Source of the DNA: Desulfuromonas sp.
Lineage (GTDB): Bacteria; Desulfobacterota; Desulfuromonadia; Desulfuromonadales; Geopsychrobacteraceae
Length of the DNA stretch: 32,816 nt
Direction: 5' to 3'
Assembly (NCBI GenBank): GCA_002869695.1
Contig: PKUD01000213.1
Span: 1 to 32,816, forward strand
Shown one piece after another: positions 1,826 to 32,816 of the stretch (the stretch's first letter is position 1; each line of letters begins with the position of its first letter). The notes under the pieces were generated by a model. The model was not told where the DNA came from and did no database searches. It worked only from the letters and a program-made list of their open reading frames with translations. The translations under genes were made by a program, and so were the position numbers.

Positions 1826-4378
1826 TCAGGCTTTGCTGATGGTAACCTTAGAACGGTTCCTCCCGTCCTGAAGCAACTGCTGAATCCCCTGTTCGGTAAA
1901 ATGGTAGGGAGCAAACAGCAGGCCCACCGGTACGGACTCGCTCAGGCTGACCTTGCCGAACGCAACACCGGTGCTGGAGCTGAGCTTGACCGCCTCACAG
2001 TCCTTGACTCCGGCTGTCGAAGCATCTTCCGGATTGATCTCAATCTTTCCTTCGGGGACCAGCTCAAGCTGGGAGTCCGACCAGGTCGAGGTTGTCCCGA
2101 AGTGGAAAATCGATTTACCGCTGAGCAATTGCAAACCTTCAACAGGCTCAGAGCCGCTGACGGCGCGATAAGTAAAGCTCTTGTCAGCTGGGCTGAACGG
2201 CTGTTTGAGGCAGGGGCGAGTGCGGTCGTTGCCGACGAAACAGATATCGCCGTAAAGACCGGAAAGTCCGCTGACTTCACTCAGGATATCGGACCGGCTG
2301 ATGGTGAGCGGAGTCTTGGTCAGGCGGGCATAGAGGTCAGCAAAAATCTCCCAGTCCTCGCGGGCATCGCCCACCGGCCGAATCCCACGTTCCAGCGGCC
2401 GGACGCGATGGTCCAGCGAGGTCACGCTGCCGCTCTTTTCCGCGAATGTCGTCCCGGGCAGAACCACCGTGGCCAGTTCAGTCAGTTCGTTCGGCAGGAT
2501 ATCCTGTACCACCAAGCAGTCGACCTTCTCCAACGCCTTGCGCCAGCGGGAGGCATTGGGAAAGCTGAGCGGGTTGGTCGCCGCCAGGTAGAGGAAACGC
2601 ACCTGACCGTTTTCCATTCCCTGCAGGATTCCGTCAGCATCCAGGCCGCCTTTCGGCAACTCGGCGTTCCAGGCTTTTCCGAACGCGCTGCTATGTTCTG
2701 CATACGGCAGGAAGCCGGGCAACGCCTCAGGATAGACACCCATATCGAGCAGGCCCTGCATATTCCCTTTTTCATCGAGTGGGAACAGGCCGCCAGCTTC
2801 TCCACGCAAAGTCCCGGTGAGGATCGCCAGGTTGGCAATCGCAGCCGCCTTCTCTTCACCTCGCTCGCTCTTGCTGATATCCGCGCCGAAAATCAATGCC
2901 ACCGTGCTGGCCGTCCCGAGCATTTGCGCGGCTTCCTCCAACTGAGCCAGCTCAATACCGGTAGCGGCAACTGCCTGCGCCAGGTCAACGCCGGCCAGAT
3001 GACTCTTCAACTCATCAAGGTTGCCGACTGCCCGGTTGAGATAATCCTCATCGACCAGCCCTTTGTCGACCAGCAGACGGCCGAGAACATTGGCGAGTTC
3101 GATCTCGCTGCCGGGACGGTAATTGAGGAAGCTGTTGGCAAAGCGCTGCAGCTTGACCTTGCGCATATTGGCAACGATCAGTTTGCCGCTCTTCTGACGG
3201 GTGGCTTCCTGGATTTTCCAGTCTATTGCCGGAGCTTCCGCGGTCGGATCGGCCCCGAACACCAGCACCGCTTCGGCGCTGCCGATACTGCTGATCAGGT
3301 TGCTGGCCCCGTGCAGACCCAATACGCTGTCCAGGCCTTTAAGAGCTCGCAGCGCACCGTAGCGCGCTTCGGAGTCGATATTGTTACTGCCGATGGCGGC
3401 CCGGAACAGCTTCTGAAACAGGTAGTTTTCTTCGTTGGTCAGGCGGGGCGAGGAAAGACCGGCCACCGCTCCGGCACCGTGCTTGCCGATCACCTGCTCG
3501 ATGGCATCGGTGACATGGCCAAGGGCAACCCCCCAGGACGCCGGCTGTTGATCGACCAGCGGCGCCTGCAGACGCTGAGGGCTGTTGATATAACCGTAAC
3601 CAAAGAATCCTGCGGTGCAGAGATTGCCGTTGTTGGTCGTCCCTTCGTCGTCGGAAGTGACGCGGAAAATCTCGCCACCCTGAACATTGAGATCAATCTG
3701 GCAATGGCTGCCGCAATGGGTACAGACCGTCGGCACCTTGCGCAGCGCCCAGGGGCGCGCCTTGAATTTGAAAGGCTTGGAGATCATCGTCCCGGTCGGG
3801 CAGACGGAGACGCAGTTGCCACAGAATTCACAGCTTTCCAGGTCCTTGTCGATAAAAGCCCGATCGCCTTTTTCATTGACGAACAGTGAACTTGCGCCCA
3901 CCACTTCGTGGCAGACCTTTACGCACTTTTCACACATCACGCAACGGTTGGGAACCTGCTGAATCAACTGCCAATGGTCGATCGTCTCGGGATTGACATC
4001 TTCCGCCTTGAACTCCTGGCGATTGACCTCGAGTTCATAACAGGTGTTCTGCAGGTCGCATTCTCCACCGGCATCGCATACCGGGCAGTCGAGCGGATGA
4101 TTGACCAGGATCAGTTCCATGATCTGCTTGCGGATTTTGGTCAGTGCCTCGGACTGGGTGGTCACCTCGATCCCGTCCTTGACCGGGGTGTTGCAGGCGG
4201 TCATTGTCCGCTCAATCCCCTTGATTTCCACAGCACAGATCCGACAGGCACCGGTCGGAGAAACCTTCTGCAGCCAACAGAGGGTCGGGATCTTGATACC
4301 GACCTCTTGGGCGGCTTCCAGGATTGTCGTTTCGGCAGGCACACTGACCTGTTTGCCGTCAATCGTCAAACTGACCAT
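1826..4378 (-). CDS. sfrA: SfrA: NuoG-like iron-sulfur/molybdopterin-fold subunit of NADPH-Fe(III) oxidoreductase
   Basis: Large subunit of a soluble SfrAB-type complex that in Geobacter passes electrons from NADPH to Fe(III) or other acceptors. The 850-residue product starts with a 2Fe-2S ferredoxin domain (C34, C45, C48, C62). Next come a NuoG-type cluster site (H94, C98, C101, C107), two 4Fe-4S motifs (C146/149/152/156 and C183/186/189/193) and a molybdopterin-oxidoreductase 4Fe-4S site (C219, C222, C226, C254). A long bis-MGD-fold region fills the rest. Whether molybdenum is bound is unknown. The ATG has GAGGTG upstream. It lies 74 bases after sfrB on the same strand. The alternative is NuoG of a complex I or hydrogenase, but no other nuo genes are adjacent. 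Confidence 0.8.
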   Translation of the reverse strand: MVSLTIDGKQVSVPAETTILEAAQEVGIKIPTLCWLQKVSPTGACRICAVEIKGIERTMTACNTPVKDGIEVTTQSEALTKIRKQIMELILVNHPLDCPVCDAGGECDLQNTCYELEVNRQEFKAEDVNPETIDHWQLIQQVPNRCVMCEKCVKVCHEVVGASSLFVNEKGDRAFIDKDLESCEFCGNCVSVCPTGTMISKPFKFKARPWALRKVPTVCTHCGSHCQIDLNVQGGEIFRVTSDDEGTTNNGNLCTAGFFGYGYINSPQRLQAPLVDQQPASWGVALGHVTDAIEQVIGKHGAGAVAGLSSPRLTNEENYLFQKLFRAAIGSNNIDSEARYGALRALKGLDSVLGLHGASNLISSIGSAEAVLVFGADPTAEAPAIDWKIQEATRQKSGKLIVANMRKVKLQRFANSFLNYRPGSEIELANVLGRLLVDKGLVDEDYLNRAVGNLDELKSHLAGVDLAQAVAATGIELAQLEEAAQMLGTASTVALIFGADISKSERGEEKAAAIANLAILTGTLRGEAGGLFPLDEKGNMQGLLDMGVYPEALPGFLPYAEHSSAFGKAWNAELPKGGLDADGILQGMENGQVRFLYLAATNPLSFPNASRWRKALEKVDCLVVQDILPNELTELATVVLPGTTFAEKSGSVTSLDHRVRPLERGIRPVGDAREDWEIFADLYARLTKTPLTISRSDILSEVSGLSGLYGDICFVGNDRTRPCLKQPFSPADKSFTYRAVSGSEPVEGLQLLSGKSIFHFGTTSTWSDSQLELVPEGKIEINPEDASTAGVKDCEAVKLSSSTGVAFGKVSLSESVPVGLLFAPYHFTEQGIQQLLQDGRNRSKVTISKA

Positions 4379-4452
4379 ATCTATTCACCTCAAAAACCGG
4401 CAGCAAGACTTCTTTCGAGAGAACCTTACCGCCTTTGCTTGATTAATTATTT

Positions 4453-6474
4453 TCAAACTGCAATCATCGAGACCCGGTAACAGCGCAGACAACGTTCGGC
4501 TTCCTTGATCGCCTCCTGATCGCTGAAGCCGAGTTCGACTTCATTGTAGTTGCCAGCGCTGGCCCGTTCACGACCATGGATTTCGTGCTGATCGAAGCGA
4601 CCGATCGCATCCAGCCAGGACACCTTCTCGTCCTTGTCATAGACTCCAAGATGACTGAGGATATCCTCGTGGAAGTCATCATCGGTCAGGTAGGCTTCGC
4701 CCTCCTCAAAATAGCGCTGGATGACTTTGGCTGCCCGGTGGGCGTTGCCAACACAGGCCACCACCGTCAAGGGTCCAATTTCGGCATCACCGGAGGCGAA
4801 TACTCCATCCATGTCAGTGAGCAGAATCCGTGTGAGGGGGTTGCCCATCTCGTCATTCAGATCACGCCCCACAAGGTTCTTCTGCGGAACGAACTTGGTC
4901 ACTACCGTATTCCAGCGGGTAATTTCAATGCCAGTATCTTCGGTGATAAAGCTGAGGTCGGGGTCCTGACCGATGGCCGGAATCAGCGTGTCGCACTCGA
5001 CGACAAACTCACTTCCTTCGACCGGTTGCGGCCGACGCCGACCGGAATCATCCGGCTCGCCCAGTTCCATGCGGACACATTCAACACCGGTGACCTGCCG
5101 GTTGTCGTCGACAATGATCTTCTTCGGCAGGACCAGGAACTCGAACTGCACGCCTTCCTCATCGGCTCCATCAACTTCCCAGACATCGGCCGGCATCTCT
5201 TTCCGGGTCCGACGATAGAGCAGAATAGAATCTTTCGCACCTTCGCGCAGGGCCACCCGCACGCAGTCGATAGCGGTGTTACCACCACCGACAACGCAGA
5301 CTCGTTTACCCATGCCGGTCGGCCTGCCCATATAAGCATCACGCAGAAACTCGATCCCGCCAGCGAGGAATCCGCTGTAGCCCTCTTTCTCACCCTCGAC
5401 GCCCATCGGCTTGGACTTGTGTGCACCGGGAGCCAGCAGCACCGCATCATGTTTTTGTTTCAGCTCCATCAGCGAGATATCTTCGCCGACCTTGGTGTCG
5501 TAGATGATCTCGACGCCCATGGAACAGATGATATCAATATCGCGCTGGAGAATGTGCCGCGGCATCCGGTAGGCCGGGATGCCGACCGCGATCATACCGC
5601 CGCCGAAACCTTCCGGCAGTGCCTCATAGATGGTCACCGGGTAGCCTTCCAGGGCAAGGTAGTAGGCGGTTGTCAAACCGGCCGGACCAGCACCGACAAT
5701 GGCCACGGACTTGCCTTTGCGGGGCTTCGGCTGCATCGGCGGGGTCTGTTGGTGTTGCCACTCGTAGTCGGACGCCGTCCGCTTGAGCACCATGATGTTG
5801 ATCGATTCGTCAACATTTTTACGGCGACAGGCCGACTCGCATGGGTGCGGGCAGACCCGGCCGCACACGGCTGGCAGCGGCATGCTTTCGCGGATGACCG
5901 ACAGAGCCTCGTCGTAGCGATAATCTTTGATCGCCTCAATATACGCGGGAATATCGATGTGGGCCGGACACTTGTCCTGGCAGGGCGCTGTCAGCTTGAC
6001 CTTGTATTCAGCCGGCCTGGGTCGCCTTTCGCCACGGATATAGGCCAGATAGTCTTCGCGGAAATATTTGACCGTGTCCAGAACCGGAACTGCCGAGGTC
6101 ATGCAGAGGGTGCATTTACAGTTCTGTAGCAGATCGGCCAGAGCCTCGATCTCGGCCAGGTCCTTCTCTTCCCCCTCGCCATTGAGAATCCGCGCCAGCG
6201 TATCCTGTAACACCCGGGTCCCCTTCTTGCCGGGCGAACACTTGGCGCAGCAGTAATCTTCCTGAACCCGCTTTGCGTATTCGGCCGCCATGGCAACGAC
6301 ATCGACTTCCGGGTCTGCGACGATAATACCGTCCCACCCCATGAACGCCACCATGGACCGCTCGCCATCAAACGTAACGGGAAGTTTTTTCTGGACAATC
6401 TCCGACGTACCGTCGCCCCCCTGGCGGTTGTCGATGATCTCTCTCCCCCAACTGGAAAATACAAGCTGACCCAA
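4453..6474 (-). CDS. sfrB: SfrB: FAD/NADPH-binding, GltD-like subunit of NADPH-Fe(III) oxidoreductase
   Basis: Flavoprotein partner of SfrA, expected to oxidise NADPH in the cytoplasm and feed the iron-sulfur chain. Residues about 75-145 resemble the C-terminal 4Fe-4S domain of NuoF (CCAKC at 75-79; Cys 119, 121, 124). Residues 165-216 hold the eight-Cys-type two-cluster region seen in glutamate synthase small subunit and DPYD. GAGPAG at 261-266 binds FAD and GGGNTA from 396 binds NADPH; FASGDAEIGP near the C-terminus closes the FAD site. It starts at TTG, supported by AGGAGG five bases upstream, and no better start is in range. In Geobacter the pair was first isolated as a soluble Fe(III) reductase and later tied to acetate metabolism. 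Confidence 0.82.
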   Translation of the reverse strand: MGQLVFSSWGREIIDNRQGGDGTSEIVQKKLPVTFDGERSMVAFMGWDGIIVADPEVDVVAMAAEYAKRVQEDYCCAKCSPGKKGTRVLQDTLARILNGEGEEKDLAEIEALADLLQNCKCTLCMTSAVPVLDTVKYFREDYLAYIRGERRPRPAEYKVKLTAPCQDKCPAHIDIPAYIEAIKDYRYDEALSVIRESMPLPAVCGRVCPHPCESACRRKNVDESINIMVLKRTASDYEWQHQQTPPMQPKPRKGKSVAIVGAGPAGLTTAYYLALEGYPVTIYEALPEGFGGGMIAVGIPAYRMPRHILQRDIDIICSMGVEIIYDTKVGEDISLMELKQKHDAVLLAPGAHKSKPMGVEGEKEGYSGFLAGGIEFLRDAYMGRPTGMGKRVCVVGGGNTAIDCVRVALREGAKDSILLYRRTRKEMPADVWEVDGADEEGVQFEFLVLPKKIIVDDNRQVTGVECVRMELGEPDDSGRRRPQPVEGSEFVVECDTLIPAIGQDPDLSFITEDTGIEITRWNTVVTKFVPQKNLVGRDLNDEMGNPLTRILLTDMDGVFASGDAEIGPLTVVACVGNAHRAAKVIQRYFEEGEAYLTDDDFHEDILSHLGVYDKDEKVSWLDAIGRFDQHEIHGRERASAGNYNEVELGFSDQEAIKEAERCLRCYRVSMIAV

Positions 6475-29639: not shown

Positions 29640-30689
29640 ATGTTTTTATTTTTTCTTACGAGTGGCCTGTTCCTCGGCTGGTCCCTGGGAGCAAACGACG
29701 CCTCAAATGTTTTCGGCACCGCCGTTGGCTCGCGGATGCTCAGGTTCCGCACGGCAGCCACCCTCTGTTGCATCTTTGTTATTTTGGGGGCAGTCTTCAG
29801 CGGAGCCGGAACAACCCAGACGCTGGGGAAGTTGGGGGCTGTCAATGCAGTTGCCGGGGCGTTCGTTGTCGCTTTCGCTGCGGCCTTGAGTGTTTACCTG
29901 ATGACTCTGGCCCGTTATCCGGTTTCGACCTCCCAGGCTATTGTCGGCGCAATCATCGGATGGAACCTGTTCTCCGGGTCCCCGACCGACAGCGATGCTC
30001 TGTTAAAAATTGTCCTGACCTGGATAGCATGCCCGTTGCTGTCGGGAATCATTGCGGTCCTGTCGTACAAGGTTGTCTCCTTCTTCATCCTTAAGCTTAA
30101 AGTCCACATGTTCAGGTTGGATGAAATGACCCGCTACGGGCTTCTGCTGATGGGCATTTTCGGCTCGTTTGCACTGGGCGCAAACAATATTGCCAATGTG
30201 GTCGGGGTCTTTCTCCCGGTCTCTCCGTTTGAAGATATTATCCTGTGGGGCCGGCTGCAGCTATCGGCGGCACAGCAGCTTTTCTTCCTCGGGAGTATTG
30301 CAATATCTGTCGGGGTCGTGACCTATTCCAAGCGGGTGATGGGGACAGTCGGAAGCGGAATTTTCCGACTTTCACCGGTCATGGCGTTTATTGCGGTATG
30401 GGCTCACTCTGTCGTACTGTTTCTCTTTGCATCGCAACGGCTGGAGCAGCTCCTGGTGAACCTAGACCTGCCGCCACTGCCGCTCGTTCCTGTGTCCAGC
30501 TCACAGGCAATCGTGGGCGCAGTGGTCGGGATGGGGTTGCTGAAAGGGAGACATAATATCCGCTGGAGAACCGTGGCCGCCATCGCCGGAAGCTGGGTGA
30601 CCACACCCATCTTTGCCTGCCTGATCAGTTTTTTCTTTCTTTTTATCCTACAAAACGTTTTTCAACAAACCGTCTACACGGCGCAATAG
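29640..30689 (+). CDS. pit: Low-affinity inorganic phosphate transporter (PiT family)
   Basis: A 349-residue inner-membrane permease of the PiT/PHO-4 family that co-transports phosphate with cations. It has about ten hydrophobic segments and the two duplicated PiT signatures: GANDASNVFGTAVGSR with PVSTSQAIVGAIIGW in the first half, GANNIANVVGVFLP with PVSSSQAIVGAVVGMG in the second. The start has no strong ribosome binding site, and it lies nine bases after the DUF47 stop, so coupling with that gene is likely. No clear terminator follows before the convergent PLP-enzyme gene. Confidence 0.94.
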   Translation: MFLFFLTSGLFLGWSLGANDASNVFGTAVGSRMLRFRTAATLCCIFVILGAVFSGAGTTQTLGKLGAVNAVAGAFVVAFAAALSVYLMTLARYPVSTSQAIVGAIIGWNLFSGSPTDSDALLKIVLTWIACPLLSGIIAVLSYKVVSFFILKLKVHMFRLDEMTRYGLLLMGIFGSFALGANNIANVVGVFLPVSPFEDIILWGRLQLSAAQQLFFLGSIAISVGVVTYSKRVMGTVGSGIFRLSPVMAFIAVWAHSVVLFLFASQRLEQLLVNLDLPPLPLVPVSSSQAIVGAVVGMGLLKGRHNIRWRTVAAIAGSWVTTPIFACLISFFFLFILQNVFQQTVYTAQ

Positions 30690-30756: not shown

Positions 30757-31947
30757 TCAACTGTTCAGCAGGTTGCGCAGTTCATCGAGAAACACAGCGA
30801 GCTCTGTTTCCGTGTTGTAATAGTGCAGTGAAGCACGGACCAGCTCGGGAAGATGCTGCTGTTCGCAAAGCCTCGGATTGGCTGAAAAAGGGACGAGTGA
30901 AAGGTTGATCCGCCTGGCGGCCAACTGCTCCTGGGTTTCTGCCGCACTCAACTGTTCCGTAGAGAACGTCACAATTCCGCACTTTTCAATACCGCGGTCC
31001 CAGACTTCCACCCCGGCTATTCCCGCCAGCTCTGCGCGCAATGAAGCGGCCAGCGACTTGACCCGTTCCGCTATCATGCCCAGACCCCAGGAAAGGGCAT
31101 AATCGATGGCGATCCCGAGGGCAACCTGGCCAGCACAATTCCGCTCCCAGCTCTCGAAGCGCCTGGCGTCTGAGCGCACGCGGTAACGGTCTGAAGAGAG
31201 CAGGATGGCGGCATGGTGGTTGAGAAGCGGCGGCTCAAGCTTATCGCAAAGGGTGTTCCGCACGTAGAGTAATCCTGTGCCACGCGGCCCACGCAAAAAC
31301 TTCCGCCCGGTGCCGCAGAGGATATCGCAGCCGAGCAGATTGACATCGCACGGCAGTTGGCCGAGGGACTGGCAGGCGTCGAGCAGAAACGGGATCCCGG
31401 CGGAGTTGGCGACCTTGCCGACCGCGACCGCCGGGTTGACCAATCCCCCGCCGGAGGGGACATGGGTCAGTGCGATCAGCTTGACCCGGCTGTCGATCAG
31501 GCCCTGCAGCGCAGCAACGTCAACCTGGCCGTGCTGGTCTTCCGGCACGAAAACGATCTCGACCCCTCGATGCCTGGCCTGATGCAACATGGCAACCAGG
31601 TTGCTGCCATACTCGGCACTGCTGGTCAGAATCCGGTCTCCAGGCTGAAAGTTGAACGCGTAGAAGGCCATCGCCCAGCCACGCGTGGCACTGTCGACAA
31701 AGGCGATCTCCTCCTCACTGCAACTCAACATCCGGGCCGCCGCGGAGTAAAAATTCTCCAACGCCGCGGCCTGCTTTTCCATGACTTCGTAGCCCCCCTC
31801 CAGTTCCTCCCGGTTCAGATAGTCATGCAGGGCATCGCAGACGGGTACCGGCATCAGCGAGGCTCCGGCATTATTGAAGTGGATGAGATCGCTGCAGCCA
31901 CGGGTCTCGCCCCTGGCACGCTCGACATCGAAGCGAACCGCGCTCAT
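30757..31947 (-). CDS. Class V aminotransferase-fold PLP enzyme, candidate ovothiol sulfoxide lyase (OvoB/EgtE-like role)
   Basis: A 396-residue PLP enzyme of the aminotransferase class V superfamily, which includes cysteine desulfurases, kynureninase and the ergothioneine C-S lyase EgtE. Visible features are FNNAGAS at residues 24-30, VDSATRGWAMAF, the PLP-pyridine Asp190 followed by ACQSLGQ, and the likely Schiff-base Lys216 in GTGRKFLRGPRGTGLLYV. Its ATG overlaps the ovoA stop by four bases. In ovothiol synthesis OvoA makes a histidyl-cysteine sulfoxide that a PLP lyase cleaves to the mercaptohistidine. The tight coupling makes this the likely lyase. Activity and substrate are inferred; a generic desulfurase is the main alternative. 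Confidence 0.8.
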   Translation of the reverse strand: MSAVRFDVERARGETRGCSDLIHFNNAGASLMPVPVCDALHDYLNREELEGGYEVMEKQAAALENFYSAAARMLSCSEEEIAFVDSATRGWAMAFYAFNFQPGDRILTSSAEYGSNLVAMLHQARHRGVEIVFVPEDQHGQVDVAALQGLIDSRVKLIALTHVPSGGGLVNPAVAVGKVANSAGIPFLLDACQSLGQLPCDVNLLGCDILCGTGRKFLRGPRGTGLLYVRNTLCDKLEPPLLNHHAAILLSSDRYRVRSDARRFESWERNCAGQVALGIAIDYALSWGLGMIAERVKSLAASLRAELAGIAGVEVWDRGIEKCGIVTFSTEQLSAAETQEQLAARRINLSLVPFSANPRLCEQQHLPELVRASLHYYNTETELAVFLDELRNLLNS

Positions 31948-32816
31948 CGAACTCTCTCCCAGAAGGTCAGTTGCGAGACTGTGTGCTGGAACTTGCGTGC
32001 GGTTTCGCGAATGACGAACTCGACATCCTGCGGTTCTGTCAGGGGTTTGAAGTGGCTTTTGAGCAGATCGTGCAGCCCTTCCAGGGTGGTGTAAGGTTCG
32101 CCCGCCCTGCGAAGACCGCCGATCCAGTCCGTTTTTTTGGTGTATTCTTCCAGCCAGGTATAGGGAGATGCGAGAGCCAACACACCACCGGGCTTAAGCC
32201 GCAGATGAATATCCGCCAGAAAACGGGCCGGATCATACAACCGGTCAATCAGGTTTGCCGCGAGAATCAGATCGTAGTCGACAAACTGCGGCTTGAGGTT
32301 GTGGGCATCCCCCTGAATAAACTCGATCCGCTCGGCAGTGCCCTGCAGGCCGAAGTCGCTCAAGCGTTTTTCATGATAGGAGACGATCTCCCCCTCCTCC
32401 GGCAGCTGGTAGTGAACTACCCCTTTTTGCTGCAATTGATGAGCAATACGGATGAAGCGCGCGGAGAAGTCGATACCGGTGACAAACGCGAACTGCTTCG
32501 CCAGCTCGAAGCTGCCGCGACCGACCGCGCAGCCAAGATCGAGGGCGCGACGCTTCGGTCTATCATCCATCACCGCAAGGATGATTTCGACCAGTCTTAG
32601 TGGGAAGTTCCTGACCCTGAACTTGTCCGGACCGTAGTGGGCATCACAGTACTGCGCAACCAGATCGTCGCTTTCGTACATCTCTTCCGGCGACTCGACC
32701 GGCTGGGACGAAACAATGTAACGAAACCCGGCGTGCTGGAAAAAATGACGGCGAAAGGCATAGCGGCTGTCGCGGGTCGCCTCGTTACCGGTGGAGATCC
32801 AGGAGCCTCCCTTGAT
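31944..32816 (-). CDS. ovoA: Partial OvoA: 5-histidylcysteine sulfoxide synthase with C-terminal N-methyltransferase domain
   Basis: The 3' part of the ovothiol enzyme OvoA, open to the right edge of the window. The 45 residues before the internal Met at 32681 are in frame and uninterrupted. They include GGSWISTGNEATRDSRY and RHFFQHAGFR, matching the end of the FGE-sulfatase-like sulfoxide synthase domain. The rest is the SAM-dependent 4-mercaptohistidine N-methyltransferase domain, with RALDLGCAVGRGSFELAK as SAM site, FVTGIDFSARFIRIA, and DYDLILAANLIDRLYDP. OvoA joins cysteine to His C5 with O2 and Fe(II), then methylates the thiohistidine product. The true start is beyond the window. Treating 32681 as the start would wrongly split the gene. 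Confidence 0.9.
   Translation of the reverse strand: MKGGSWISTGNEATRDSRYAFRRHFFQHAGFRYIVSSQPVESPEEMYESDDLVAQYCDAHYGPDKFRVRNFPLRLVEIILAVMDDRPKRRALDLGCAVGRGSFELAKQFAFVTGIDFSARFIRIAHQLQQKGVVHYQLPEEGEIVSYHEKRLSDFGLQGTAERIEFIQGDAHNLKPQFVDYDLILAANLIDRLYDPARFLADIHLRLKPGGVLALASPYTWLEEYTKKTDWIGGLRRAGEPYTTLEGLHDLLKSHFKPLTEPQDVEFVIRETARKFQHTVSQLTFWERVR

Follow-up and report, generated by a model that had tools for sequence, protein, structure and literature searches.

OvoA joins histidine and cysteine oxidatively in a sulfoxide. A PLP lyase sets 5-thiohistidine free from this, and the C-terminal OvoA domain then adds the methyl group (PMC12631010). The described lyase, OvoB (5z0q), has a class I/II aminotransferase fold and belongs to the PatB family (TIGR04350). 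EgtE (8irk; TIGR04343), the hercynylcysteine sulfoxide lyase, is a class V enzyme; its substrate carries the sulfur at C2 of histidine, whereas the ovothiol pathway uses C5. The reaction of EgtE has a sulfenic acid as intermediate and also yields pyruvate and ammonia (PMC4493562). In the locus described here ovoA is followed by a class V enzyme. Judged from its sequence, we consider the locus a probable two-gene ovothiol A cassette with a second, non-orthologous OvoB.

Layout of the ovoA locus at the contig end

The window, i.e. the whole stretch of DNA that was analysed, is a single contig of 32,816 bases (G000:C193) from a genome of 3.29 Mb in 219 contigs that is 97% complete, and the end of the window is the end of the contig. 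The ORF running into this edge carries two domains fused in frame (Table 1). Residues 47-288 correspond to the methyltransferase model TIGR04345 over all 242 positions, and residues 1-34 to the end of the sulfoxide synthase model TIGR04344, which owing to the contig end is matched over its last 34 positions only, with 52 bits; the cut-off of this model is exceeded in 10 of 60 relatives. The following ORF is a class V enzyme (Aminotran_5, PF00266, E 2.5e-56). Chance is excluded as a source of either assignment by the match scores. Hence ORFs, domain scores and the ATGA confirm the first-pass annotation in its description of an OvoA C-terminus overlapping a class V PLP gene by four bases. Its reading of the pair as an ovothiol biosynthesis cassette is supported by the score of the methyltransferase domain (338 bits) and by the position of the PLP gene in the lyase slot.

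Table 1. Coordinates of the cassette, its neighbour and the standalone methyltransferases. Positions are those of the window unless a locus is given.
Feature	Position	Strand	Evidence or remark
OvoA, C-terminal 290 aa	31944..32816	-	5' end cut by contig end; reading frame open at edge
End of 5-histidylcysteine sulfoxide synthase domain	32715..32816	-	TIGR04344 positions 411-444
5-thiohistidine N-methyltransferase domain (OvoA C-terminal, OvoM-like)	31953..32678	-	TIGR04345 1-242, 338 bits, cut-off 170
ATGA overlap of ovoA stop and PLP gene start	31944..31947	-	read within GTTCGATGA
Class V PLP enzyme, 396 aa, proposed second (non-orthologous) OvoB	30757..31947	-	PF00266, adjacency, co-occurrence, tree
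Codon of Lys216, predicted Schiff-base lysine in TGRKFLRGPRGTG	31300..31302	-	alignment
Codon of Ser355, position of the desulfurase nucleophilic cysteine (VPFSANP)	30883..30885	-	alignment
PHO4-family phosphate transporter, convergent neighbour, outside the cassette	29640..30689	+	domain match
Standalone OvoA-type methyltransferases	L113:6935-7738, L108:6965-7771, L110:5172-5963, L111:2523-3323		TIGR04345

The OvoA C-terminus is 71-81% identical to OvoA of relatives and matches them at each of the 53 columns in which they do not vary. It shares the complete methyltransferase domain, the end of the synthase domain and the in-frame fusion with the solved OvoA 8khq, with which a full-length relative aligns end to end. 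The iron ligands are kept in the full-length relatives: HX3HxE was found in 70 of 70 ORFs of at least 636 aa (loci first gathered, with a few duplicates among them), and the alignment of 81 near-full-length OvoA relatives shows no variation in the three histidine ligands, the glutamate and one tyrosine. Because the contig ends at position 32816, the iron site of the window's own copy is not readable. The missing N-terminus is not on any other contig of the assembly (E 0.001), and weak matches to formylglycine-generating-enzyme-like regions in the genome search were rejected as candidates for it. As the gene is cut and its N-terminus is absent from the assembly, a full-length OvoA is inferred here from the relatives. 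Apart from this missing part, no difference from 8khq is visible, and in our view this is an ordinary OvoA gene that the assembly has truncated.

The position of the gene at the edge of one of the genome's 219 contigs raises the question whether the junction of ovoA and the PLP gene was created by assembly or binning. However, the same gene pair is present in the same order in 12 other genomes, and the two-gene stretch aligns in one piece, with 74% identity, to a genome of the same family (G034), which makes an artefact exceedingly improbable. The G+C content does not shift abruptly at the cassette.

Elsewhere in the window (1826-6474), a molybdopterin oxidoreductase with NADH-dehydrogenase-G-type iron-sulfur domains adjoins an NADH-dehydrogenase-F/pyridine nucleotide oxidoreductase fusion; together they form an electron-transfer module.

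Standalone OvoA-type methyltransferases (TIGR04345) were observed in 27 genomes in which no sulfoxide synthase was detected, among them Malonomonas rubra and Geomobilimonas luticola; the two that were checked score 285 and 335 bits. Inspection by eye revealed no conserved or obvious ovothiol-specific neighbour of those in Malonomonas, Geomobilimonas and Desulfuromusa. In one genus (g72, G192-G199) all eight genomes have the standalone methyltransferase, and seven of them also a PatB-type lyase.

Family and active-site residues of the class V partner

By score, the best PDB and HMM relatives of the class V partner are cysteine desulfurases, and with SufS, CsdA and NifS it shares the class V fold and about 25-30% identity. 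Taken at face value, these database neighbours would mislead as to the identity of the enzyme. With the SufS model TIGR01979 it reaches 174 bits, far under the curated cut-off of 475. To compare its residues, 13 full-length members and 9 remote homologues were aligned with 5 desulfurases and with 26 class V paralogues taken from relatives. The catalytic cysteine is kept in all five desulfurases and in 22 of the 26 paralogues, the remaining four being gapped there, whereas all 13 members have a serine at this position (Ser355, VPFSANP). Likewise, Arg-Lys replaces His-Lys in the members, with Lys216 as the predicted Schiff-base lysine. In the class V tree, which does not contain EgtE, the members form a clade of their own (98/97); the remote homologues join it, and the desulfurases stand apart (100/100). 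The first-pass annotation had named a firm grouping with desulfurases, coupled with a lack of conservation beside ovoA in relatives, as an outcome that would refute its reading; the tree separates the partner from the desulfurases. In addition, OvoA obtains its sulfur directly from cysteine, so no desulfurase is needed. We thus rejected the identity as a cysteine desulfurase, and a SufS/NifS-type enzyme that supplies sulfur to the pathway is very improbable.

The motif around the lysine, Arg-Lys-aromatic-Leu-x-Gly-Pro-Arg-Gly, is instead shared with the class V enzyme EgtE (TGRKFLRGPRGTG in the partner versus SRKWLAGPRGVG in EgtE), for which substrate and reaction may be analogous to those proposed here. 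The partner differs from EgtE in its score with TIGR04343, 157 bits against a cut-off of 400, and in having OvoA as its genetic partner. Of the 'EgtE-like architecture' ascribed to it earlier, the class V assignment and the Arg-Lys motif stand, while the curated model does not identify it as EgtE. Another class V enzyme, the cystine C-S lyase C-DES (1elq), cleaves a cysteine derivative, as the partner is proposed to do; it is only weakly similar (58 bits) and has another substrate. A predicted structure of the partner, derived from a two-sequence alignment, had a pLDDT of 45 and was set aside.

The lyase slot downstream of ovoA

Some members of the class Desulfuromonadia, Geomonas and Citrifermentans among them, have a PatB-type C-S lyase gene as the ORF after ovoA (464-527 bits, cut-off 340). 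It overlaps ovoA by four bases in several of these members, Geomonas and Citrifermentans included. In Sulfurovum mangrovi, a gene of this type begins 2 bp past ovoA. A PatB-type lyase lies directly downstream of ovoA in 32 of the 61 genomes having both. The best PDB relative of the Geomonas slot enzyme by sequence is 5z0q (403 bits versus 276 for the next), the record of which is titled 'Crystal Structure of OvoB'. Hence, the position taken by the class V enzyme here is elsewhere occupied by the established OvoB family.

The class V partner shares with OvoB the slot directly after ovoA, a short overlap and the use of PLP, and presumably the reaction. It differs in belonging to PF00266 and does not meaningfully resemble the PatB-type slot enzyme over its length: BLASTP against that of Geomonas gives 27 bits over 81 residues, and the PatB model is absent among the best 25 of its 29 NCBIfam matches. 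No PatB match was found anywhere in this genome at E 1e-40. If OvoB is defined by 5z0q and the PatB family, the partner therefore lies outside it; if OvoB is defined by context, the partner lies within, as its gene is directly downstream of ovoA and excluded by the other lyase.

Of 277 Desulfuromonadia genomes, 15 contain a homologue of the class V gene (at least 62% identity). OvoA is also present in 14 of these; in the fifteenth, which is 80% complete, the homologue is a fragment located where a 3466-base contig ends. Both genes share a contig in 12 relatives, and in each of these the class V gene lies directly downstream of ovoA on the same strand, so that the conservation of the pair, which the first-pass annotation had made a point to be checked, is borne out. 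The two genes overlap by 1 to 19 bases at 10 of the 13 loci with the PLP gene, as judged from first-start ORFs. Within one family (f12) the class V gene occurs in 10 of 10 genomes with OvoA and in none of the 12 others. Among the 128 OvoA genomes of the class, the class V enzyme is present in 14 and the PatB type in 61; no genome has both, and 53 (e.g. G007, G010, G005) have neither, with PatB counted by its curated cut-off and with many genomes being incomplete. The mutual exclusion has a Fisher P of 7e-5, not corrected for shared ancestry. The class V enzyme is thus a well-supported candidate for the ovothiol C-S lyase, as which it had been put forward: it fills the slot, co-occurs with OvoA, is mutually exclusive with the PatB/OvoB-type lyase and lacks the cysteine of the desulfurases.

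In the OvoA tree the class V gene is limited to one Desulfuromonadales branch of 24 rows. This distribution fits one gain followed by losses; separate gains would be an alternative reading. A sample of 168 genomes from the phylum contained no member of the family outside the class at E 1e-60. One genome (G027) has a decayed class V remnant directly after an open ovoA (L041:11122-11779), and in another (G055) the class V gene carries a one-base frameshift. The class V gene is therefore dispensable in some lineages.

More remote relatives with 46-54% identity are found on plasmids beside amino-acid transporters and other genes, not ovoA; the wider family therefore has other roles. The neighbours of the remote homologues are amino-acid transporters, LysR regulators or a homocysteine S-methyltransferase gene. 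At four loci with remote homologues of 47-54% identity (L159, L162, L193, L191), the Streptomyces and Meiothermus plasmid copies adjoin polar amino-acid ABC transporters, and the Paroceanicella homologue overlaps a homocysteine S-methyltransferase family gene. The remote homologues are possibly a catabolic C-S lyase family, and the family to which they and the partner belong probably acts on amino-acid conjugates more broadly.

These neighbourhoods also bear on another origin of the gene beside ovoA. The enzyme may have been recruited from such a family catabolising amino-acid conjugates and modify or degrade thiohistidine or another cysteine conjugate, with a generic PLP enzyme acting as the lyase. 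The 53 OvoA genomes with neither lyase and the decay of the class V gene beside ovoA would agree with this, as would the amino-acid ABC transporters and the homocysteine S-methyltransferase gene next to distant relatives. Yet the class V gene fills the slot of the OvoB-type lyase with the same kind of overlap, and the two enzymes are mutually exclusive. Such a role is hence unlikely, though clearly less so than a desulfurase. OvoA is probably an ordinary family member, and its class V partner a second, non-orthologous OvoB.

The proposed pathway would start at the N-terminal iron domain of OvoA, where cysteine, C5 of histidine and O2 give 5-histidylcysteine sulfoxide. The middle, lyase step is likely that of the class V enzyme. 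With PLP on Lys216, it would form an aldimine with the cysteinyl part of the sulfoxide, take the alpha proton and eliminate the sulfur. Pyruvate and ammonia would be released along with 5-thiohistidine, which would arise by way of a sulfenic acid with the help of a reductant. The C-terminal domain of OvoA would then methylate 5-thiohistidine to ovothiol A. The class V enzyme would thus be a second family recruited to the step that is held by PatB-type OvoB in relatives.

Oxygen and the meaning of a probable second lyase

The first-pass annotation had pointed to a conflict between the O2-dependent OvoA and an anaerobic host and suggested either oxygen defence or a different oxidant. OvoA does occur in a mainly anaerobic class: the sulfoxide synthase was found in 128 of 277 Desulfuromonadia genomes, this genome being counted by its truncated copy. 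The anomaly is weaker than claimed, given oxidase genes and documented O2 tolerance. Heme-copper oxidase genes for subunits I and III are located on contig C105 together with an SCO1-like protein and a prenyltransferase of the UbiA family, which includes heme O synthase; cytochrome bd had no match in this genome. For Geobacter and Desulfuromonas, oxygen tolerance, caa3 and cbb3 oxidases and growth with (low) O2 have been described (PMC8235581). As the genome encodes an oxygen-using respiratory oxidase, an oxygen-dependent pathway is no paradox here, and together with the documented tolerance and growth this means that O2-dependent ovothiol synthesis during exposure would need no new oxidant.

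The opposite view, that OvoA here is independent of O2 and uses another oxidant to make ovothiol under anoxia, can draw on its wide occurrence in a class regarded as mainly anaerobic (PMC8235581) and on the existence of anaerobic routes to the sister compound ergothioneine (PMC9516567, PMC9103826). However, the iron ligands and the conserved tyrosine are unchanged in the 81 relatives, and heme-copper oxidase genes are present in this genome. Of the 128 OvoA genomes, 126 encode an oxidase of the heme-copper or bd family, but so do 131 of the 149 others (P 7e-4, ancestry uncorrected; PF00115 may take in nitric oxide reductases too). Nothing points to a different oxidant, and we regard an anoxic route as highly unlikely. 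With O2 as the probable oxidant, the oxygen puzzle is mostly resolved.

A review names only two anaerobic species among the surveyed bacteria with OvoA (PMC9103826), and a full-text search of papers available without subscription found no discussion of OvoA in Geobacter. Ovothiol genes are, by contrast, common in Geobacter-type bacteria, and cultured strains would therefore allow a direct test of whether they help the cells to survive exposure to oxygen.

Of the steps in ovothiol biosynthesis, that of the sulfoxide lyase is the least fixed: a recognisable dedicated lyase is missing from many OvoA genomes. We find it rather likely that a class V lyase without close sequence relation to OvoB independently took over the C-S cleavage in Desulfuromonadales. 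If so, ovothiol C-S cleavage evolved at least twice, as did sulfurisation in ergothioneine biosynthesis, and the cassette would show how a fixed operon slot can be taken over by a non-orthologous enzyme. An unrelated second lyase that is linked to ovoA could then guide the search for ovothiol producers, and it would be a class V enzyme to set beside EgtE in asking how the two histidine sulfoxides are distinguished.
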